From assembly GCA_014695195.1 (NCBI GenBank), contig JACJNW010000022.1, positions 1 to 64,000 of the forward strand: a stretch of DNA of 64,000 nucleotides. Direction: 5' to 3'. Shown here one piece after another: positions 8,283-42,844 of this stretch. The notes under the pieces are model-generated. The model saw only the letters and a list, made by a program, of their open reading frames with translations. It ran no database searches and had not been told where the DNA came from. Source of the stretch: Cyanobacteria bacterium FACHB-DQ100 (lineage in GTDB: Bacteria; Cyanobacteriota; Cyanobacteriia; Leptolyngbyales; Leptolyngbyaceae). The first letter of the stretch is position 1. Every line of letters starts with the position of its first letter. Position numbers and translations under genes: made by a program.

Positions 8283-10613
8283 TCATCGGGCTAACCGCGA
8301 GACTGTCGCAACTAGCTCAGCCGGATTAATAGGCTTCGATAAGTGCTTTTGAAACCCAGCATTTAACACTTGACGTTCATTTGCTTCCCCCGCGTAAGCA
8401 GTTAGCGCGATCGCACGCACTTGAGAAGCCGGAGCAGGTAGCTGAGTGCGGATCGATTCAATCAGCATATACCCATCGATCTCTGGCATTCCGATATCGC
8501 TGACGAGCAAATCCGGCTGAATGTGTAGAATTGATCGCAGCACTTCGCTTGCCGAGGATAATGCCACGATTTCGGCACCGGCTTGCTCCAGCACAAAGGC
8601 AACAAAATCACGCGAATCAGGCTCATCGTCTACGACCACGATCTTTAACCCGCTCAGCGAAGCTTCGTCATCTGTTAACCGTGCATCATCAGGGTTAGTG
8701 TCTAACTGCATTGATTGCTTCAGGAGCGGCAACCGCACCATAAACGTAGCGCCTTGATCTTCACCTGCACTTTCGACCCTGACTGTCCCGCCATGTAATT
8801 CGACCAGTTGCCGCACGATCGCAAGTCCTAACCCTAATCCCCCGAACTTGCGCGTCGTCGCTCCGTCCTCTTGGCGAAAGTATTCAAACACATACGGTAG
8901 AAACCCTGGATGAATGCCTTTTCCGGTGTCTCGTACCTGCATTTGAGCGTGCGTTCCAAGCTGTTGTAACTCGATCTCGACTTGTCCCCCTTCCGGCGTG
9001 AACTTAATCGCGTTGGTCAGTAAGTTCCAGACCACTTGCTGAAGACGAGCCGAATCCCCCAGCACTTGCCCCACCTTCAAATCTAGATGCGTTTGAATCT
9101 GAATTGATTTGGCTTCTGCCGCTAGTCGTACGGTTTCCAGCGCTGCACGAATGATCACCGCGAGATCGATCGGTACTGGATTGAGCTTGAGTTTGCCTTG
9201 AAGAATCCGGGAAACATCGAGCAGATCTTCAATCAGTTGGACTTGTAGCTGGGCGTTGCGCTCGATCGTCTCTAGGGCATGAGCCGTTCTTTCAGCATCT
9301 AAACGACCTTTGCGAAGCAGACTTGACCAGCCGAGAATCGGATTGAGCGGAGAGCGTAATTCATGCGATAACACCGCCAAGAACTCGTCTTTGATGCGGT
9401 TAGCGGTTTCCGCTTGCTGCCGCGCCCCTTGCTCACTCACTAGAAGCTGTTCACGTTCCGCTTCCGCTTGCTTTTGTTTGGTAATGTCGCGTGACACAAC
9501 TAACAGTTGCGAAACCTGTCCGGCTGGATTTCGCACCGCAGAAACGATCACATCCCACCATCTCGGCTGACCTTTTCTGGTTGGGCAATAGCCGTTAAAC
9601 TGTCCCACGTTGCCCGCTTGAGCTACCTCGATCGCAGTTCTTGCCTTTTGTTGGTCTTCGCCTTGCCAAAAGGTGAGCCAATCTTTACCCAGAACCGACT
9701 CAGGCTGACCAATCTCAAGAAGCTGCAAGCTGCCTTTATTTAAGTACAAGATTCGCCCATCTAAGCCTAGAACTTTGATGCAGTCATGCGTGCTCTCTAA
9801 AATTCGCTGCTTTAACTCTTCACTTTCTCGCAGGTCTGCTTCGGCTTGTTTGCGTTCCGCTTCGCGGCGCTTGGCGGCGGTAATATCGGACAGGATGAGA
9901 ACCGCACCGGTAAACTTTCCCTGCGAATTGAAGATTGGATCAACGGTTTTGGCAAGCCAGCGTCCTTCTGCCCGAAGCTCTGTAACTTGACGCTGATGTG
10001 TTTCTCTAGCCAGACGAAAGCAGGCACCGTCACCGACTCCCAGTTCTGCCTGCATCAGTTCATAATGAAGACAGCCAGCAATCTCTTCAGCAGACTTACA
10101 AAAAAGCTGGCTCATCGCTCGATTACAGCGCAGAGATCTGCCTTCCGAATCTAATAAACACACGCCATCATTGATTGCATCGAACGTCGTTTGCCATTCT
10201 CGTGCCAGAGTAAAGGCTGATTCTTCAGCGCGACGAACTCGCAGCAGCGATCGCACCGTCGCTAACAGTTCGATCGGTTCCACGGGCTGAACGAGGTAGC
10301 CATCGGCACCGCTATCGAGTCCTTCGGCTTTATCTTGACTTTTGACAAAACTGGCTGAGAGATGCAGCACCGGAATAAAGGCAGTTTCGGGATTTGACTT
10401 AATCTGGCGACAGACTTCAAAGCCGTTGACATCGGGTAGCTTCACATCCAGAATCACAAGCGCGGGCTGATAATCCACGATCGCCTGGAGTCCTGCGGCT
10501 CCGGTTTCTGCTTCGACCACGGTGTACCCTGCCTCTTGCAGAACTCGCGTCACGATGTAACGAGTCGTTTCGTTGTCGTCGATATGCAAAATCGTGACTC
10601 GTGACTCAATCAT
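8283..10613 (-). CDS. hybrid sensor histidine kinase: REC-PAS-PAS-HisKA-HATPase-REC
   Basis: The protein has 776 residues and no membrane segment. An N-terminal receiver (about 1-125) carries the acceptor Asp56 in VILDVKLPD. Two PAS domains follow (about 140-255 and 265-385), then a HisKA box LSHELRSPLNPILGW with the His near residue 417. The HATPase domain has its N-box NLLTNAIKFTPEGG and its G-box GLGLGLAIV, and a C-terminal receiver carries LLVSDIGMPEIDG. A ribosome-binding site GGGAGAGG precedes the ATG. It is the last gene of the rsb operon, 10 bases after the previous gene, so it probably acts at the output end of the stressosome relay. No DNA-binding output domain is present; the final target is unknown. 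Confidence 0.9.
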   Translation of the reverse strand: MIESRVTILHIDDNETTRYIVTRVLQEAGYTVVEAETGAAGLQAIVDYQPALVILDVKLPDVNGFEVCRQIKSNPETAFIPVLHLSASFVKSQDKAEGLDSGADGYLVQPVEPIELLATVRSLLRVRRAEESAFTLAREWQTTFDAINDGVCLLDSEGRSLRCNRAMSQLFCKSAEEIAGCLHYELMQAELGVGDGACFRLARETHQRQVTELRAEGRWLAKTVDPIFNSQGKFTGAVLILSDITAAKRREAERKQAEADLRESEELKQRILESTHDCIKVLGLDGRILYLNKGSLQLLEIGQPESVLGKDWLTFWQGEDQQKARTAIEVAQAGNVGQFNGYCPTRKGQPRWWDVIVSAVRNPAGQVSQLLVVSRDITKQKQAEAEREQLLVSEQGARQQAETANRIKDEFLAVLSHELRSPLNPILGWSSLLRKGRLDAERTAHALETIERNAQLQVQLIEDLLDVSRILQGKLKLNPVPIDLAVIIRAALETVRLAAEAKSIQIQTHLDLKVGQVLGDSARLQQVVWNLLTNAIKFTPEGGQVEIELQQLGTHAQMQVRDTGKGIHPGFLPYVFEYFRQEDGATTRKFGGLGLGLAIVRQLVELHGGTVRVESAGEDQGATFMVRLPLLKQSMQLDTNPDDARLTDDEASLSGLKIVVVDDEPDSRDFVAFVLEQAGAEIVALSSASEVLRSILHIQPDLLVSDIGMPEIDGYMLIESIRTQLPAPASQVRAIALTAYAGEANERQVLNAGFQKHLSKPINPAELVATVSRLAR

Positions 10614-10623
10614 GACCTCTCCC

Positions 10624-12753
10624 TTAAGTATCTAGAACCAGTCTGGCTTTGATCAGTGCCTCTCGAAGTTGGGAGGATGCTGCTTGGGCAATCGTTTCTT
10701 TAGAAACAATTGCGATCCCCTGCTTGGTTAAACTGCTCTGCGTTTCCGCATCCAATTGAATAGATGAATGGATGATAACAGGAATCAATTGAGCAGTGGG
10801 ACTTTGCTGGAGCCGATCGAGGACATCAAGTCCGCTCATATCCGGCAGTTCCAGATCAAGCAGAATTGCGTCTGGCGATTCGAGAGTTGCCAATGCAATG
10901 CCTTCTTGTCCACTTACAGCTTCTAAAACTTGCAGTGGAGTATCAGACAATAGTTGCTCTATCACATAACGATGAGAGGAATCATCGTCAATCAGGAGCA
11001 GTTTTTGAGTTCTGCCTCGATTAATCAACCGATTTAGCTTATTCAGCATCGGCAATCTATCTACAGGCTTAATCAAGAATCCATCGGCTCCAAGGGCAAG
11101 AGCCTGCTTCTCGTTATCAACCACAGTCGCGACGATGACGGGAATCTTGCAGGTGGCACTATCGCCTTTAATTTCTTTGAGAAACGTCCAGCCGTTTTGC
11201 CTTTCAAGTAAAATATCCAGCACGATCGCGGCGGGTTGAATCTGCTGTAGGACAGATCTCGCTTGCTCTAGAGAACGGGCTGTAACTAGCTGATAGCTTG
11301 AATCTTGCAGGTGCTTTTCATAAATAAACAGCGTTTCGGTGTGGTCTTCGATCGCGAGAATCGGCAGTCGAGCGGGTTGGAGCGGCGCGATCGTTTGCAG
11401 TGAAGAGGTGAGTTCGGTAGTGTGGGGATAAACGATCGGGATCGAGGCTGAGAAGGTTGAGCCTTTTCCCAGTTCACTGATTAGTGAAACACTGCCTCCT
11501 AATAGCTCTGTCAGCTTTCGGGTAAGCGGCAGTCCGAGTCCTGTTCCTTTGGTTTGCTTTTGCAGATCAGACCCGATTTGCACAAAATCTTCAAAAATCC
11601 GCTCTTGGTCGTCTGGAGCAATACCGATTCCAGTATCCGCAACAGAAAAGGTAATCGTTTGACCCGTTTGCGCTGCTGTCACTCGCACTTCCCCTCGATC
11701 GGTGAACTTGAGCGCATTCGAGACAAAATTTCTCAGAATTTGGGCGACTTTTCCTTCATCGCTATAGAGCGGCGATAATCCAATCGGTTCTTCAAAAATC
11801 AGCGCCACAGAGCTATTTTGCACCAGCAAGGGGCGCAACATTCCCCGCATTGTGCCAAACAAGTCGCTAACCTCAAATGCACTGGGATGGACTTCGACTT
11901 TTCCAGCTTCTACTTTTGCTAGATCCAGTAGATCGTTGACTAGAACGGATAATCCGTCTGCCGCTTTTTGGATAAAGGTCACTTGTTTTGCTTGCTCTGA
12001 GGTTAAGTCTCCGTCTAAGTGGTTAAGCAGTATCCGAGACAACGAGAGGATCGAATTTAACGGTGTCCGAAACTCATGACTCATATTCGAGAGAAAGCGG
12101 GTTTTGAGTTCGTTTGCCTGTTGGAGAGAGTCCGCCTTTTCATCGAGTTCGGCATATAGAGCTAGGACACCGCGATTGGTATCTTCTAACTCTCGGTTAA
12201 GTTGAATCAGTTCTTCTTCACGCTGGCGCAGTTCTGCCATCGCTTGCAGCAGTTCTTGATTTTGGCGCTGAATCTCTTCGTAAGGATTCTGGGGCGATCG
12301 CTTGATCATCTCGTCCCGAATCTGCTGCAATTGCGCTTCAGTCAGCAGCGTTGATCGCTTCGGCAGCGCTTTGCCCATGACGATCGTAGTCCCGGTGGGC
12401 TGCGATTCTATCTCAAAGCGCTCCATCAATCGGCGCGTACCCAGGATGCCAAGCCCCATTCCTGTTTGGGAGGTGTAGCGTCCTGCCAACACTTCTGCAA
12501 GATGCGGAATGCCCTGACCCTGATCCCAAATCCGAATCAAAAAGGTCTGAGGATTTCCATCTAGATAGAATTCAACGGTTCCGCCCCCGGCATATTGAAA
12601 CGCATTGCGGCTAATTTCTGAAACTGCCGTTGCCAGTCGTGTTTGATCTTGCGGATCAAATCCTAAGTGATCGGCAAGTTCGCGGGTTCGTTGCCGCGCC
12701 TGTACGACATCTTGTTCGTAGTGAACTCTGAGCGTGAATAAAACAACCCTCAT
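10624..12753 (-). CDS. RsbT-like ATPase fused to hybrid histidine kinase with two receivers
   Basis: The protein has 709 residues. The first 135 form a GHKL ATPase of the RsbT/RsbW type (AVSEISRNAFQYAGGG; GMGLGILGTRRLMERF). A coiled coil (about 155-205) leads to a HisKA domain (SHEFRTPLNS, His near 224) and a second, full-size HATPase (NFVSNALKFTDRGEV; GTGLGLPLTRK). Two receivers follow, with acceptor Asp in VLDILLE and ILLDLELPD. The start overlaps the stop of the upstream gene by 4 bases (12750-12753), so translation is probably coupled. A switch kinase domain and a phosphorelay kinase in one chain suggest a direct bridge from partner switching to two-component signalling. This role is an inference. 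Confidence 0.88.
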   Translation of the reverse strand: MRVVLFTLRVHYEQDVVQARQRTRELADHLGFDPQDQTRLATAVSEISRNAFQYAGGGTVEFYLDGNPQTFLIRIWDQGQGIPHLAEVLAGRYTSQTGMGLGILGTRRLMERFEIESQPTGTTIVMGKALPKRSTLLTEAQLQQIRDEMIKRSPQNPYEEIQRQNQELLQAMAELRQREEELIQLNRELEDTNRGVLALYAELDEKADSLQQANELKTRFLSNMSHEFRTPLNSILSLSRILLNHLDGDLTSEQAKQVTFIQKAADGLSVLVNDLLDLAKVEAGKVEVHPSAFEVSDLFGTMRGMLRPLLVQNSSVALIFEEPIGLSPLYSDEGKVAQILRNFVSNALKFTDRGEVRVTAAQTGQTITFSVADTGIGIAPDDQERIFEDFVQIGSDLQKQTKGTGLGLPLTRKLTELLGGSVSLISELGKGSTFSASIPIVYPHTTELTSSLQTIAPLQPARLPILAIEDHTETLFIYEKHLQDSSYQLVTARSLEQARSVLQQIQPAAIVLDILLERQNGWTFLKEIKGDSATCKIPVIVATVVDNEKQALALGADGFLIKPVDRLPMLNKLNRLINRGRTQKLLLIDDDSSHRYVIEQLLSDTPLQVLEAVSGQEGIALATLESPDAILLDLELPDMSGLDVLDRLQQSPTAQLIPVIIHSSIQLDAETQSSLTKQGIAIVSKETIAQAASSQLREALIKARLVLDT

Positions 12754-13751
12754 CGTGCTTCTCTTGCCACCAGTACGGTCACGTCATCTCGATCGCGGTT
12801 AAAGTCTCGATACAATACCCCCGCGATCAGACTGGGATGTTTTTGGCGCAATCCAGGATAACGATCGAGCCTCCACTGCGTTGCCAATCCGTCAGAGTGC
12901 ATAATCAACAATCCGTTCGGATACCAGGGATGCGTAAACTCCTGAATTTTGCGGACTTCATGCCCAACCGTGCCATTGTGAGACACCAGATTGTGATGAT
13001 CCGTAAACGAAGAGATGCTGGTCGCAATGTTACCGATGCCTGCGTAGTGAACTGATCGCTGGTCAAAATTAATTTCCGTGATCGCTAATACTGCGCCGCG
13101 TGTACTTCGCAAAGCTTGATGTGCCGCTTCGACGATTTCATGGGGCGATCGCTGATAATTTTCCTCTAAAGTTCTGACGGCGGCTGAAGAAGCACTCGCC
13201 GCCGCAGACCCATGCCCTAACCCGTCTGCCACTAGCAATACACTACGATGCGGGTGAATTTGACTTGCCCAAGCATCTCCAGAAACTTCCTCGCCTCGCT
13301 TCGGTAAACAGACCGCTCCGATTTCTAATAGGATCTTGGGTGAATGGGAAAGCGGCTCTGACCAAAGTTGCATCAGAATTGCGGTTCCAGAGCCAGGAAT
13401 CGAATAAATTTCAAACAAATTAGAAAGGCGACGAACCGCGCCCAATCCATTGCCTGAGGTTCCAGCCGTCGAAAAGCCATCTTGTAAGCACTGATTCACA
13501 TCGATCATGCCTGGCCCTTGATCGAGGGCTAAAACCTCAATGCCGATCGCGGGCTCTTGGATTGCCCGCAGCAGCATCACTCCTCCCTGAGCGTGCTGTA
13601 GCAGATTGTTCGCAACCTCGGTCACGACAATCCCGACTCTACCGCGCTCGATCTCTTTGAACCCGAAACGAGTTGCCAAGTTCAGCGCTGCCCGTCGCGC
13701 TTCTCCTATTTGACTTGACTCAGTGATTGCAATGGCGATCGATTCTCTCAT
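12750..13751 (-). CDS. RsbT/RsbW-like ATPase domain fused to SpoIIE-type PP2C phosphatase
   Basis: The protein has 333 residues. The N-terminal half (about 1-130) is a GHKL ATPase (VVTEVANNLLQHAQGG; GNGLGAVRRLSNLF). The C-terminal half resembles SpoIIE/RsbX phosphatases, with Asp-containing motifs GDAWAS and VADGLGHG, and further conserved LLIMHSDGLATQW. In Bacillus, RsbX dephosphorylates RsbS and RsbR and resets the stressosome. This protein sits after rsbT in the operon, so it is the likely reset phosphatase, with an extra ATPase domain that Bacillus RsbX lacks. Whether the ATPase part still binds ATP was not tested. Confidence 0.85.
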   Translation of the reverse strand: MRESIAIAITESSQIGEARRAALNLATRFGFKEIERGRVGIVVTEVANNLLQHAQGGVMLLRAIQEPAIGIEVLALDQGPGMIDVNQCLQDGFSTAGTSGNGLGAVRRLSNLFEIYSIPGSGTAILMQLWSEPLSHSPKILLEIGAVCLPKRGEEVSGDAWASQIHPHRSVLLVADGLGHGSAAASASSAAVRTLEENYQRSPHEIVEAAHQALRSTRGAVLAITEINFDQRSVHYAGIGNIATSISSFTDHHNLVSHNGTVGHEVRKIQEFTHPWYPNGLLIMHSDGLATQWRLDRYPGLRQKHPSLIAGVLYRDFNRDRDDVTVLVAREAR

Positions 13752-13785
13752 GCCCTATTCTGACGCATTCCGAATCAAATCATCG

Positions 13786-14184
13786 CTATTTCCACCGAAC
13801 GATCGTCACCCGCGTTCCTTGTCCGATCGCAGATTCAATCACAAACTCATTCGCCAATCGTTTAGCGCCACCCAATCCCATTCCTAATCCGCTCCCCGTG
13901 GTAAATCCATCTTTGAGCGCTAGTTCAATATCCGGAATGCCCGAACCTTGATCTTCAAAAGTGAGCCGGAGTCCTCTGCGTCCTCCTGCCTCCAGCGTTT
14001 CTAGCTTCATCAGTCCGCCACCGCCATAATCTAGGGTGTTGCGGGCAAGTTCACTGGCGGCGGTGACAATTTTGGTTTGATCTACTAAGCCGAACCCAAT
14101 CGCGATCGCGGACTGGCGCACGGCTTGTCGGACTAAAATCACGTCTGTAGAAGATGCAATCGGTACCGTTTCAATCTTTTCCAT
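13786..14184 (-). CDS. rsbT: RsbT-like serine kinase of the stressosome
   Basis: From the ATG at 14184 (MEKIETVPI) the protein has 132 residues, close to Bacillus RsbT. Conserved blocks are GLVDQTKIVTAASELARN (N-box), DQGSGIPDIELALKDGFTT and GLGMGLGGAKRLANEF, and it ends TRVTIVRWK, much like RsbT. It should phosphorylate the STAS proteins RsbS and RsbR and then leave the complex to act on its output partner. The start overlaps the end of rsbS by 14 bases, so the two are translationally linked. A longer start at 14205 is possible. Confidence 0.88.
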   Translation of the reverse strand: MEKIETVPIASSTDVILVRQAVRQSAIAIGFGLVDQTKIVTAASELARNTLDYGGGGLMKLETLEAGGRRGLRLTFEDQGSGIPDIELALKDGFTTGSGLGMGLGGAKRLANEFVIESAIGQGTRVTIVRWK

Positions 14185-14587
14185 CGTCGTGTACACTCCG
14201 CCCACGCTCGACGATTGGAGGTTTGGCAGGTTCGCTCAGCGACGATCGCAGCAGCGCCATACCTTTTTCTAGGTTTAACGCAGTCCGAATTCCGGTGAGC
14301 GATAATCCCAACTCTACCAGAGTAATTGCCACGGCGGGCTGCATTCCAACGACGACGGTTTCGGCATCCAGCACCCGCGCCATTCTCGCAATGTTGCCTA
14401 AAACCCTGCCGATAAAAGAATCAACAATCTCTAAGGCAGAGATATCAATCAGAACGCCGTGCGCCGAAGTTTCGGAGATACGGTTCGTTAAGTCATCCTG
14501 TAGCGTCAGGGCTAAACGATCGTGCATATCGACCTGGATTGTGACCAAGAGAAAGTTGCCCATTTGCAGGATAGGAATGTGTTCCAT
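14171..14587 (-). CDS. rsbS: RsbS-like STAS domain protein, stressosome core
   Basis: The 138-residue protein is a single STAS domain over the first 115 residues. The block DISALEIVDSFIGRVLGNI contains Ser57, at the position phosphorylated by RsbT in Bacillus RsbS (DSF motif). Downstream VVVGMQPAVAITLVELGL is also typical. RsbS and RsbR build the cytoplasmic stressosome that holds RsbT inactive. The stretch after residue 115 (SSLSEPAKPPIVERGRSVHDDGKD) is a longer tail than usual and overlaps the rsbT start. Confidence 0.9.
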   Translation of the reverse strand: MEHIPILQMGNFLLVTIQVDMHDRLALTLQDDLTNRISETSAHGVLIDISALEIVDSFIGRVLGNIARMARVLDAETVVVGMQPAVAITLVELGLSLTGIRTALNLEKGMALLRSSLSEPAKPPIVERGRSVHDDGKD

Positions 14588-14597
14588 GCGGTTTCTC

Positions 14598-15458
14598 CTA
14601 TTTCGCCTGAGTGCGGACGATCGTCGCTCCCACTCGCGTCAGTGCCACTCGAAACGCATCGGCTAACGTGGCTTTTGTGATCACATTAGTTAAATCGATG
14701 CCGAGATACACGATCGTTTGAGCAATTTGAGGACGAATGCCGCTGATAATACAGTCTGCCCCCATTAATCGAGCCGCAGTCACAGTTTTGAGCAAGTGTT
14801 GAGCGGTGAGGGTATCGACAGTCGGAACCCCAGTAATATCGATAATCGCAACTTCTGATCCAGTCTCCACGATCGCTTGTAGCAGGGATTCCATCACCGT
14901 CTGAGTCCGAGCGCTATCAAGCGTTCCAATAACCGGCAGAGCGAGAATCCCGTCCCAAAGTTTTACAACGGGCGTAGAAAGCTCAAGCAACTCTTCCTGC
15001 TGGCGCTGAATCACTTTTTCCCGCGACTTTTGATACGCTTCCATCGCCAGTAATCCGAGTTGATCCAGCAAAGTGGTGGCTTGCCAAATTTCCTCACTTA
15101 ATGCAGCGGAATCTTTGAGATGCTGACGCATTCGATCGAACAGGGGTTGCTTGAACGAAAACACAAACATCGCCGTTTCAGTTGGCGTAAAGCCTTTTTG
15201 AGATCGCGATCGTGCCACGCTTTCCACCATTTCCCGCACGTCGCGCCACTCTGAAGCTTGAAGATTTGTCAGATTATTGTGCTGAGCAGCGCTCCGAAGC
15301 ACATTGAGAAATTCGCGGCATTCCTCTTGCATTTCTGCTTCTTTGATTAGCCCCCCGCGATTGTTCGCGATCGCCAGTTCTCGACTCCACTCTGCCAGTA
15401 AGTCTGCTTCATAGGCTTCAAGAATTTCCGGGATCGTACTGCGACTCGTCATATCCAT
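14598..15458 (-). CDS. RsbR-like stressosome protein (N-terminal sensor + STAS)
   Basis: The protein has 286 residues. An alpha-helical N-terminal domain (about 1-150: STIPEILEAYEADLLAEW, later FVFSFKQPLFDRMRQH) resembles the four-helix sensor of RsbRD-type proteins rather than a globin or PAS sensor. The STAS domain (about 165-280) has DITGVPTVDTLTAQHL, with Thr at the sites phosphorylated by RsbT in RsbR proteins, and IISGIRPQIAQTIVYLGIDL. It is the first gene of the rsb operon and lies 10 bases before rsbS. The input it senses cannot be read from the sequence. Confidence 0.88.
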   Translation of the reverse strand: MDMTSRSTIPEILEAYEADLLAEWSRELAIANNRGGLIKEAEMQEECREFLNVLRSAAQHNNLTNLQASEWRDVREMVESVARSRSQKGFTPTETAMFVFSFKQPLFDRMRQHLKDSAALSEEIWQATTLLDQLGLLAMEAYQKSREKVIQRQQEELLELSTPVVKLWDGILALPVIGTLDSARTQTVMESLLQAIVETGSEVAIIDITGVPTVDTLTAQHLLKTVTAARLMGADCIISGIRPQIAQTIVYLGIDLTNVITKATLADAFRVALTRVGATIVRTQAK

Positions 15459-15811: not shown

Positions 15812-17842
15812 ATGACAAACCTTGCCCCTCTGCATCAAACCGCGCATCTCGATCTGACCAAACTCTTTCAGCGAGCCGCGATCGCCAGTAGCGCGATCGT
15901 GTTCTGCATCGGTTTGAGTGTCCTCATGGGATGGCAACTGCACATACCCTTACTGATGGGCAGCTTTGCCGATGACCTTGCCCCCATGAGCATCCAGAGC
16001 GCGATCGTGTTTATGATCGCCGCCCTGTCGTTGGGTTGCTTAAAATGGCGACCTCGGCATCAAGTCACGCAACGGATTTCGCAAATATTGGCGATCGTCG
16101 TGATTGCTTTCGGGCTTTTGAGCTTAAGCACAAGCCTCTCAAACTGGCAGCTTGATCAACACTGGATGCTGCCTTTTGTAAACTTCCAACTTAGTAACAG
16201 CATTCGTCCAACGGCGGTTAGCACTGGACTAAACTTTGCCCTAATTGGCAGTGCGCTATTGTCTTCGAGTCGAACCGATCGCACCTGGCAGCGTGTCGCT
16301 CAAGTGCTCACCTTGGCTGTCGCACTCATCGCAGTCAATGCACTCGTCAACAATGTGCATCCGATCGGCTTACCCCCGTTGTATCCCGCCCCAAAAATGG
16401 CATTGACAACCGCACTCACGTTTCTGATTCTGGGTGCAGGAATTCAGGCATTGCACCTGGATGAAGCCGTGATGCAAGTGATCCAAATCAGCGAGGGATC
16501 AAGCGAAGTCATGGTGTGTCAACTGTTGCAAGCCGCGATCGCGCTGGCAATTCTCGAAGCGTTTGTCACACTCTGGGGACAACCCCAAACCCCAGAAGAT
16601 ACGATTTTCAATTTGTCGTTGCTGACGCTAAAAACGGCTGTCATCTTTACCTTGCTGATCGGCTGGAGCATTTCGCTTTTAACTCGCATTCGACAAGATT
16701 ATCAGCAAGCGGAAGCCGTCGTCGAAGACCGGGAAGTCTGGCTAGAAATGGCACAGGAGGCGGCTCATTTAGGGTGCTGGGATTGGAATGTGCACCAGGA
16801 TCTGCTGCAATGGTGCGATCGACAAAGAAAACTCTTTGGTATTGCTGCTGAAGTGCTTAGTGGAACGCGTGAGACATTTTTATTGCGCGTTCACCCAGAC
16901 GATCGATCGCGAGTGCAGCACCATCTAAATCAAACGATCGAGGCACAACAGAACTATTACGATGAGTTTCGGATTGTCTGGGCGGATCAGAGTGTGCATT
17001 GGATCGCCTCGAAAGGACGGTGTTTCTACAACGAAACCGGACAAGCCATTCGCATGAGTGGAGTCAGTTTTGAGATTACAGAATATCGCCAGATGCAGGA
17101 GGAGCGAGATCGATTACTTCAGCTTGAACAAGCTGCCCGAACCAAAGCCGAAGCCGCCAACCGCACGAAAGACGAGTTTCTAACCATTTTGTCGCACGAG
17201 ATCCGGACTCCGCTGAATTCTGTGTTGGGCTGGATTCGCTTGTTTCGGTCTCGATCGCTCAATCCTGAGATGGTGGCACGCGGCATGGATGCGCTCGAAC
17301 GCAATGCAGAAGCACAGGCGCAAATCTTGGAAGATATGCTAGACATGGCGCGGGTCGTGCAGGGTAGACTCCAGCTGCAAATGTCGCCAACCGATGTCAG
17401 CACTGTAATTACAGCCGTTATTGATACCATTCGTCCGGCGGCTCAAGCGAAACGCATTCATATTCACACTCAGCTCGATCCGACAGTCGATCGACTCATC
17501 TGCGATCCCAATCGACTGCGCCAGATCGTGTGGAATTTGATGTGCAACGCGGTGAAGTTTACGCCGCCTGAAGGCAAGATAGAAGTGACCTTGATGCGAG
17601 TAGATCAGTTCATTCACATTCAGATTAGCGACACTGGAAGAGGAATTGATCCAAACTTTTTGCCGTATGTCTTCGATCGCTTTCGTCAAGAGGACAGTAC
17701 GCTGACTCGAAGTTACGGCGGATTGGGGCTAGGGTTAGCATTAGTGCGCTATCTGGCTGAGCTACATGGAGGAACGGTTGAAGCAACAAGCCCAGGCATC
17801 GATCAGGGTGCGACCTTTACGCTGAAGTTGCCCTGCGGTTAG
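15812..17842 (+). CDS. membrane-bound PAS sensor histidine kinase
   Basis: The protein has 676 residues. Six to eight transmembrane segments fill the first 300 residues (for example AIASSAIVFCIGLSVLMGW and TAVIFTLLIGWSISLL). A PAS fold follows (AAHLGCWDWNVHQDLLQWCD to about 420), then HisKA LSHEIRTPLNSVLGW with His near 462, and a HATPase with NLMCNAVKFTPPEG and GLGLGLALVRYLAELHGG. There is no receiver. Its kinase core is similar to that of the hybrid kinase at 8283-10613. It is transcribed divergently from the rsb operon, so both may serve the same pathway; the signal is unknown. Its partner could be one of the receivers in the operon. Confidence 0.88.
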   Translation: MTNLAPLHQTAHLDLTKLFQRAAIASSAIVFCIGLSVLMGWQLHIPLLMGSFADDLAPMSIQSAIVFMIAALSLGCLKWRPRHQVTQRISQILAIVVIAFGLLSLSTSLSNWQLDQHWMLPFVNFQLSNSIRPTAVSTGLNFALIGSALLSSSRTDRTWQRVAQVLTLAVALIAVNALVNNVHPIGLPPLYPAPKMALTTALTFLILGAGIQALHLDEAVMQVIQISEGSSEVMVCQLLQAAIALAILEAFVTLWGQPQTPEDTIFNLSLLTLKTAVIFTLLIGWSISLLTRIRQDYQQAEAVVEDREVWLEMAQEAAHLGCWDWNVHQDLLQWCDRQRKLFGIAAEVLSGTRETFLLRVHPDDRSRVQHHLNQTIEAQQNYYDEFRIVWADQSVHWIASKGRCFYNETGQAIRMSGVSFEITEYRQMQEERDRLLQLEQAARTKAEAANRTKDEFLTILSHEIRTPLNSVLGWIRLFRSRSLNPEMVARGMDALERNAEAQAQILEDMLDMARVVQGRLQLQMSPTDVSTVITAVIDTIRPAAQAKRIHIHTQLDPTVDRLICDPNRLRQIVWNLMCNAVKFTPPEGKIEVTLMRVDQFIHIQISDTGRGIDPNFLPYVFDRFRQEDSTLTRSYGGLGLGLALVRYLAELHGGTVEATSPGIDQGATFTLKLPCG

Positions 17843-42118: not shown

Positions 42119-42844
42119 ATGAAACGCTTCTTTACTGCAGGGATGACTGATACCGGACTGATCCGATCTGTCAACCAAGACGCTTATTCTGTCGATCCAG
42201 ATGAGCGATTTTTCATTGTCACTGATGGTATGGGTGGACACGCAGGCGGACAAGAAGCCAGTCGCATCGCGATAGAGACGATGCAAGCAGTTCTGACGCA
42301 GCAGTGGGAAACCGATCTCGATTCGGAAACGCTGTTGCAGCAAGCAGTCTTAGAGGCGAATCAAGCCATTCTCAAGGATCAGCGCCTCCACCCGGAACGA
42401 GCAGATATGGGAACTACGGCAGTTGCGGTGATTTTCCGGGATGACCAACCGCTTTATACCCATATTGGAGATTCGCGACTATATCGACTGCGAGGAGCTA
42501 AACTCGAACAAATCACCGAAGACCATACTTGGGTCGCAAGAGCAATGCGCCTCGGTGAAATTACGCCGGATCAAGCGCGAGTCCATCCCATGCGCCACGT
42601 CTTAGCTCAATGTTTAGGACGACCTGAATTAGAAACCGTAGAAGTACGATCGCTCTCCGTGCAGTCGGGCGATCGTTTGCTGCTCTGTAGCGACGGACTG
42701 ACCGAAGAACTCTCTGATCAACTCATCGCGAACCATCTGAAATCAATTCGAGCCTGCGAAAAGGCAGCCACTGCGTTGATTAATGCAGCAAAAGATCGCG
42801 GCGGACGAGACAATATCACTGTGGTGATTGTCGCAATTCCGTAA
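42119..42844 (+). CDS. PP2C-family serine/threonine phosphatase (Stp1-like)
   Basis: The 241-residue protein has the bacterial PP2C motifs: RSVNQDAY, FFIVTDGMGGHAGGQEAS, MGTTAVAV, THIGDSRLYRLR, LLLCSDGLTEEL and GGRDNITVVIV, so the metal-binding Asp residues are all present. It removes phosphate from Ser/Thr sites in a cytosolic signalling network. It follows the ABC1-kinase gene by about 95 bases. Its partner kinase cannot be the upstream pseudokinase if that protein is inactive. Confidence 0.92.
   Translation: MKRFFTAGMTDTGLIRSVNQDAYSVDPDERFFIVTDGMGGHAGGQEASRIAIETMQAVLTQQWETDLDSETLLQQAVLEANQAILKDQRLHPERADMGTTAVAVIFRDDQPLYTHIGDSRLYRLRGAKLEQITEDHTWVARAMRLGEITPDQARVHPMRHVLAQCLGRPELETVEVRSLSVQSGDRLLLCSDGLTEELSDQLIANHLKSIRACEKAATALINAAKDRGGRDNITVVIVAIP

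Follow-up and report, generated by a model that had tools for sequence, protein, structure and literature searches.

Six minus-strand genes at positions 8283-15458 of a 64,000 nucleotide stretch of DNA from Cyanobacteria bacterium FACHB-DQ100 (the window; contig 22, JACJNW010000022.1, of a 5.5 Mb genome with an estimated completeness of 99.9%) encode RsbR, RsbS, RsbT, an RsbX-type phosphatase (X) and two hybrid histidine kinases (K1 and K2). The N-termini of X and K1 are members of the RsbT family, and thus three RsbT-type heads (free RsbT, X and K1), each with the predicted catalytic Glu and Asn and a putative docking Arg, stand beside one RsbR/RsbS pair with intact predicted phospho-sites. 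The first-pass annotation had proposed six genes on one strand with this order and these domains, and the open reading frames (ORFs) and Pfam matches bear this out. The genes are closely packed, with gaps of 10 bases between RsbR and RsbS, 34 between RsbT and X and 10 between K1 and K2, an overlap of 4 between X and K1, and an overlap of RsbS with RsbT of 35 if the latter starts at its GTG or 14 if it starts at the ATG at 14184. The parts of the operon (lengths in amino acids, aa) are as follows.

14598..15458, minus strand: RsbR, 286 aa; RsbRD_N sensor and STAS (Pfam); phospho-sites S182 and T216
14171..14587, minus strand: RsbS, 138 aa; STAS (Pfam); phospho-site S57 within VDSFIGR
13786..14205, minus strand: RsbT, GHKL Ser/Thr kinase; 139 aa as called from GTG, in-frame ATG at 14184; R26, Q27, E52, N56
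12750..13751, minus strand: X, 333 aa; RsbT-like head and RsbX-type PP2C; Pfam HATPase_c_2 and SpoIIE
13362..13751, minus strand: RsbT-like head of X, residues 1-130; R19, E45, N49
10624..12753, minus strand: K1, 709 aa; RsbT-like head, coiled coil, HisKA, HATPase_c, REC, REC
12364..12753, minus strand: RsbT-like head of K1, residues 1-130; R20, Q21, E46, N50
12103..12285, minus strand: conserved helix at the head-to-HisKA joint of K1, about residues 157-217, with ELEDTNRGVLALYAELDEKA
11902..12105, minus strand: HisKA of K1 (Pfam); phospho-acceptor H226
11437..11760, minus strand: HATPase_c of K1, the histidine-kinase ATPase (Pfam)
10627..11361, minus strand: REC1 and REC2 of K1 (Pfam)
8283..10613, minus strand: K2, 776 aa; REC-PAS-PAS-HisKA-HATPase_c-REC (Pfam); Q109 of the first REC replaces the usual Lys

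In published accounts of the stressosome RsbT sits on a core of RsbS and RsbR, phosphorylates both upon stress, leaves the core and activates RsbU, with RsbX resetting the system (PMC9237108, PMC9237128, PMC6614362). The genes described here form an RsbRSTX module in that they comprise an RsbR with a sensor and a STAS domain with acceptor residues (S182 and T216 were located through their spacing in comparison with Listeria RsbR T175 and T209), a STAS-only RsbS with its Ser, an RsbT with Glu and Asn, and an adjoining RsbX-type PP2C whose top match among solved structures is RsbX of B. subtilis (3w40, E 2e-17). X departs from a plain RsbX by its additional RsbT-like head. By Pfam RsbT matches HATPase_c, with HATPase_c_2 falling under its cut-off (E 1.7e-5), and K1 matches HATPase_c_2, HisKA, HATPase_c and two REC domains; the HisKA His, the HATPase_c and the REC Asp are all present in both K1 and K2. 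There is no sigma or anti-sigma gene inside the operon. A scan for promoters and terminators performed no better than chance (promoter-like sites: 2, shuffle mean 6.7; terminator-like sites: 8, shuffle mean 7.6).

RsbT-type heads on the phosphatase and the histidine kinase

Searching the whole genome with RsbT at E 0.001 returned three places, namely RsbT itself and the N-termini of K1 (38% identity, E 5.4e-19) and X (32%, E 7.0e-16), in a genome holding 33 HATPase_c_2 matches overall. The first-pass annotation had recognised ATPase domains on both proteins, which are indeed present, and had missed that they are of the RsbT type. A fold search with K1 residues 1-445 gave histidine kinases among the 50 matches listed and the head was therefore modelled alone (residues 1-152, from 22 sequences, mean predicted local distance difference test score 93.7). 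With this model the top 13 matches were SpoIIAB and then RsbW structures (the first being 1til, E 3e-8), the first histidine kinase appearing at rank 14. In sequence searches of solved structures SpoIIAB was not recovered with the K1 head and was found only from the RsbT query and from the fold; the K1 head also gave marginal matches to engineered proteins and to carboxylases, which were ignored.

For comparison we used 80 RsbT loci, the best 80 of 170 from one contig scan with RsbT, so that all counts from them apply to near relatives of the window's RsbT. A tree of 79 head domains (from the window, 24 of the 80 loci, the additional loci L130 and L131, and four RsbW-like rows) required the minimum possible number of type changes (3), with organisms mixed within each of the types free RsbT (T), X head and K1 head (K). 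The RsbW-like rows from the same genome fell on one side of a branch (100/98), in a tree built on few columns, where the RsbW-like branches are long enough to be flagged by the tool and the K group does not form one resolved clade. Taken with the searches, the heads of K1 and X are of the RsbT family and lie nearer to RsbT than to ATPases of the RsbW-like or histidine-kinase kind. The cyanobacterial genome G044 has a free-standing RsbT-like protein, between RsbT and a headless PP2C, which joins the X heads in the tree (95/99) and looks like the unfused state of X.

The predicted catalytic residues of a Ser/Thr kinase and the presumed docking Arg are conserved in all three types of head (counts include the window itself; T n=81, X n=79, K n=59). 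Every row keeps the catalytic Glu and Asn of the N-box (81/81 T, 79/79 X, 59/59 K) and an Arg placed by PDB profile alignment on Arg20 of SpoIIAB, a residue that contacts SpoIIAA and sigma F (81/81, 79/79 and 59/59), and this Arg and the catalytic Glu span 27 residues, both counted, throughout. The G1-box Asp is kept in 81/81 T, 79/79 X and 57/59 K. The N-box Glu of the heads corresponds to Glu45 of L. innocua RsbT, its proposed catalytic base (PMC9237128), and K1's own histidine-kinase ATPase has Asn at the corresponding motif position. Gln20 of L. innocua RsbT, placed in contact with the linker helix of RsbR by a published docking model (PMC9237128), maps by the Arg-Glu spacing to Q27 of RsbT and Q21 of K1; this position is Gln in 78 of the 81 T and all 59 K rows, and in X it is Arg (63/79) or Val (16/79). 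On the side of the core S57 of RsbS is Ser in 81/81 rows, S182 of RsbR is kept in all 78 rows having a residue there and position 216 is Thr in 63 and Ser in 16 of 79. The Asp residues of SGD and DGLGHG in the PP2C of X are kept in 79/79 rows.

The head of K1 is joined to HisKA by a helix, ELE-TNRGVVALYAELD, which ranks among the most invariant parts of K1. In loci L056 and L065 head and helix stay alike despite a fall in overall identity to K1 to 36 and 40% (others 56-80%), since it is the kinase core that diverges, although it still matches HisKA and HATPase_c by Pfam. Within its own genome the helix is confined to K1 (search at E 0.01). A profile of the helix searched against the 3274 ORFs of at least 120 residues in the loci collected, some of which overlap, gave 97 matches, comprising 81 in ORFs with an RsbT-type head and 16 in the GAF-PP2C gene which follows X in Streptomyces, one per locus. 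The same kind of helix, TNQGVVALHAELD, is found in 16/16 of these Streptomyces loci, and the N-terminus of the GAF-PP2C protein aligns with the first half of the K head (in 15 of the 16 proteins; L074 is without the start motif), keeping an Arg and lacking the Glu and Asn. This N-terminus is likely descended from an RsbT-like head, as its alignment and the adjoining helix suggest.

Gene order and co-occurrence

The first-pass annotation had suggested a check of gene order in other genomes, and the six-gene chain is not unique, being found also on plasmid MP1 of D. radiodurans and in many cyanobacteria. The RsbT nearest to that of the window among the loci is that of Cyanobacteria bacterium FACHB-63 (L004, 91%). 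RsbT was extracted from 80/80 loci, X from 78 (two contigs end first) and K1 from 58, the 22 loci without K1 being the 16 from Streptomyces and six whose contigs end before or inside K1 (L018, L026, L043, L045, L062 and L075), of which the contig-cut L045 still shows the K1 head. Of the 64 non-Streptomyces loci 58 thus have S-T-X-K1 in this order, and the contigs of the other six stop first. RsbR lies ahead of this set in 56/58 loci, one of the remainder (L046) being cut there, and K2, recognised by a first REC of at least 100 bits, is found in 43/58, with some of the other 15 cut by contig ends. The 58 K1 loci come from Cyanobacteriota, Planctomycetota, Acidobacteriota and Pseudomonadota, and a search of plasmids added 20 records, 17 from Deinococcus and one each from Caballeronia, Sphingomonas and Paraburkholderia. 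In Microcoleus-type loci K1 is without REC matches and K2 does not follow (Pfam on L049); a regulator replacing K2 was looked for there and rejected, the next same-strand ORF of at least 110 aa in L049 being an MBOAT acyltransferase.

Where K2 is present its first REC keeps the phospho-Asp in 44/44 rows (window included), and the usual Lys is Gln in 42/44 (Q109, in YLVQPV, in the window); because of this Gln the domain may not switch in the usual way. An all-against-all BLAST of the flanks of non-Streptomyces loci found families in at most 9 loci, lineage-local among the 14 largest, and no linked output regulator. A PAS histidine kinase at 15812-17842 on the plus strand adjoins rsbR divergently, and L004, a close relative, has a counterpart in the corresponding position; the kinase was left out as a seventh part of the operon. 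On a plasmid of Paraburkholderia sp. D15 (L134) the operon copy lies beside the catalase gene katE and two Hsp20 genes, hinting at an oxidative or heat stress context. The window also contains a separate PP2C phosphatase at 42119-42844 (plus strand), which by position is unrelated to the operon.

In a sample of 292 cyanobacterial genomes a 301-residue stretch of K1 was matched in 31, nine of the matches spanning the head, the helix and HisKA (E 7e-98 or better) and the other 22 starting only from residue 130 on, on the kinase side. RsbT itself was found at E 1e-20 in 11 of the 292, namely the nine fusion genomes, at 63% identity or more, and G041 and G044 at 41-45%. Pfam RsbU_N, the domain bound by RsbT in Bacillus, exceeded its cut-off in G041 and G044, which have RsbT and lack the fusion, and in none of the nine. 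In the source genome, where it was searched at E 0.01, it gave no match, so that a sigma-B-type target of RsbT was not found there. In G044 a RsbU_N-HisKA-HATPase protein stands at the end of both RsbT modules seen. The recurrence of the gene order across phyla and the co-occurrence of the fusion with RsbT agree with the first-pass proposal that the stressosome module is wired to histidine kinases and not to a sigma-B cassette. As a side observation RsbR of G041 (L131:3075-4028) has a protoglobin sensor domain, as in Vibrio, and a headless RsbX-type PP2C follows its RsbT. KaiA C-terminal domains can give sub-threshold RsbU_N matches (L136:941-1876 and L137:547-1470, E 0.0015 and 0.0018), from which a contact between an RsbT-type protein and KaiA is a speculative thought.

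Possible routes of signal output

That the ATPases of X and K1 are of the RsbT type shifts the likely mechanism from one in which RsbT acts on the kinase to one in which an RsbT-like head makes the kinase itself a client of the stressosome. We see about an even chance that the operon encodes a complete minimal stressosome that signals through a histidine kinase, itself headed by an RsbT paralogue and released by stress, with no need for RsbU. The K1 head would bind the STAS core of RsbS and RsbR in the manner of RsbT, holding the kinase inactive or out of reach. Once the RsbR sensor is triggered RsbT would phosphorylate RsbS at S57 as well as RsbR, the docking surface would be lost and K1 would come off the core. 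The freed head could then influence the HisKA dimer by way of the conserved coiled coil, leading to autophosphorylation at H226, with K1's own REC domains and K2 or response regulators in trans as possible recipients of the phosphate. X would reach the core by its own head, dephosphorylate RsbS and RsbR and so reset it.

The first-pass annotation had reasoned from the missing sigma and anti-sigma genes that the output is therefore a phosphorelay. Their absence from the operon holds, and the conclusion was overstated, as the genome contains partner-switching genes elsewhere. On contig 41 one group of genes encodes a REC-SpoIIE protein close to a STAS protein, an RsbW-like ATPase and a fusion of STAS with a sugar transferase, and a second group pairs REC-GAF-SpoIIE with an RsbW-like ATPase. 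Because such REC-SpoIIE phosphatases with STAS and RsbW-like partners exist, the final receiver of the relay could be a further partner switch; these sets are natural candidate receivers for its last step and show no link to the operon here. In the first of them (L123; G000 C41:116000-124000) the clustering of REC-SpoIIE, STAS, STAS-bacterial sugar transferase fusion and RsbW-like ATPase suggests that a partner switch may act on polysaccharide synthesis.

Several observations weigh against the release of an RsbT-headed kinase as the output. The above-cut-off RsbU_N of G041 is on another contig and not beside RsbT, the kinase upstream of its RsbR matching at 19 bits only, and both G041 and G044 have an estimated contamination of 7%. 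Sub-threshold RsbU_N matches are found in six of the nine fusion genomes, two of these having been identified as KaiA (G099 and G008). The glycine boxes of the K heads depart in L020, L042 and L055, and the last of these, an Acidobacteria metagenome-assembled genome, has S-T-X-K1-K2 with no RsbR within ~9.6 kb upstream (20 kb stretch). The head of the Streptomyces GAF-PP2C protein is weak and catalytically degenerate (hhalign probability 22% against K heads and 15% against T, 94% for head and helix), and related genomes are non-independent observations. The conserved Glu and Asn would equally fit a third Ser/Thr kinase instead of a passive docking head, and the direction of flow cannot be read from sequence.

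One alternative is that the K1 head is a receiver of RsbT, such that released RsbT binds or phosphorylates it and switches K1 on as with RsbU. GHKL Ser kinases dimerise, making an RsbT-K1 head heterodimer plausible, and in G044 RsbU_N takes the place of the head on a kinase; we nevertheless regard this as unlikely, as the head is RsbT-like rather than RsbU_N-like and retains both Arg and Gln on the presumed STAS-docking face, which a mere target of RsbT would not need. The signal could also run in reverse, with K1 and K2 sensing through PAS and REC domains and steering the K1 head as an active Ser/Thr kinase on RsbS or RsbR, the output then leaving through RsbT or STAS proteins elsewhere. The invariant catalytic residues of the K heads, the two PAS domains of K2 and nine further STAS stretches elsewhere in the genome would suit such a flow. 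It seems improbable to us given that RsbR has a sensor domain already, that head and helix lie N-terminal of HisKA, where input domains sit, and are kept before divergent kinase cores, and that in Microcoleus-type loci K1 lacks REC and is not followed by K2. That RsbT acts on an ordinary target elsewhere, an unlinked anti-sigma or STAS/RsbW-type switch to which the kinases are mere neighbours, we consider very unlikely, notwithstanding the REC-SpoIIE, REC-GAF-SpoIIE, STAS and RsbW-like genes on contig 41; RsbU_N is without a match in the source genome and the co-occurrence of the fusion with a close RsbT in 9/9 genomes makes a chance neighbourhood of the kinases unlikely.

Relation to known stressosome systems

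RsbRSTX modules are widely conserved, including in Cyanobacteria, and HisKA/REC phosphorelays downstream of them have been described (PMC9237108, PMC10014275). In V. vulnificus, as here, R-S-T-X is directly followed by two-component proteins without a sigma-B cassette (PMC9237108, PMC10014275). According to Heinz et al. most of the downstream proteins considered are without RsbU_N, and their account gives no positive result for binding of RsbT to the Vibrio downstream kinase (PMC9237108). That kinase is described as being without RsbU_N, with no mention of an RsbT-like head in these accounts, whereas K1 is RsbT-headed; likewise RsbX of the Vibrio type is described as a single-domain PP2C (in the globin-type set of PMC9237108), whereas X carries an RsbT-like head. 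The sensor of Vibrio RsbR is a globin and here it is RsbRD_N. We found no description of an RsbT-like domain on a downstream kinase or on RsbX in the literature on RsbRSTX modules, of which the survey of Pane-Farre et al. 2005 may show it. Modules beside phosphorelays are thus already known and, as judged from a literature search, the RsbT-headed kinase is apparently undescribed.

With the sigma-B stressosome of Bacillus and Listeria (RsbRST-U-V-W-SigB-X) the operon shares RsbR, RsbS and RsbT with corresponding phospho-sites and an RsbX-type phosphatase. The output there is RsbT binding RsbU_N, in contrast to the present operon, where RsbU_N was not found and an RsbT paralogue sits on the output kinase. 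RsbK-RsbY of Bacillus cereus likewise involves a hybrid sensor kinase, reported to pass phosphate to RsbY in the sigma-B pathway. RsbY is a REC-PP2C protein, and to our knowledge RsbK is without an RsbRST core or an RsbT-like head. Streptomyces R-S-T-X-(GAF-PP2C) shares the head on X and the same kind of helix in the next protein, but there the output domain is GAF-PP2C, the head is degenerate and there is no K1.

A counterpart in a laboratory strain is on plasmid MP1 of D. radiodurans R1 (DR_RS15570-DR_RS15595), where all six genes recur in unchanged order and both X and K1 bear an RsbT-like head, the proteins being RsbRD_N-STAS, STAS (by annotation), ATPase, ATPase-SpoIIE, ATPase-HisKA-HATPase-REC and REC-HisKA-HATPase. 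It differs in that its K1 has one REC and its K2 is without PAS and second REC, and the proteins are annotated merely as STAS, anti-sigma or ATP-binding. In a proteomic study of H2O2 exposure DR_B0026, listed as 'sigma B regulator, RsbT', was one of four genes with discordant quantitative reverse transcription PCR and proteome results (PMC7143949); DR_B0026 is presumably the RsbT of the MP1 operon.

More broadly, though we would put this at somewhat short of an even chance, the core may be a shared seat for which three RsbT-type heads compete, those of a free Ser/Thr kinase, a phosphatase and a histidine kinase, with head and coiled coil forming a portable plug that makes output enzymes direct clients of the core, beside the RsbT-RsbU_N route, across Cyanobacteriota, Deinococcota, Pseudomonadota, Acidobacteriota and Planctomycetota. 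The RsbT-headed kinase offers, for some of the RsbRSTX modules, a concrete answer as to how a signal is put out without RsbU or sigma B. If true, Ser/Thr partner switching and His-Asp phosphorelay would be joined in one polypeptide and, as D. radiodurans R1 has the same operon, the idea is testable there.

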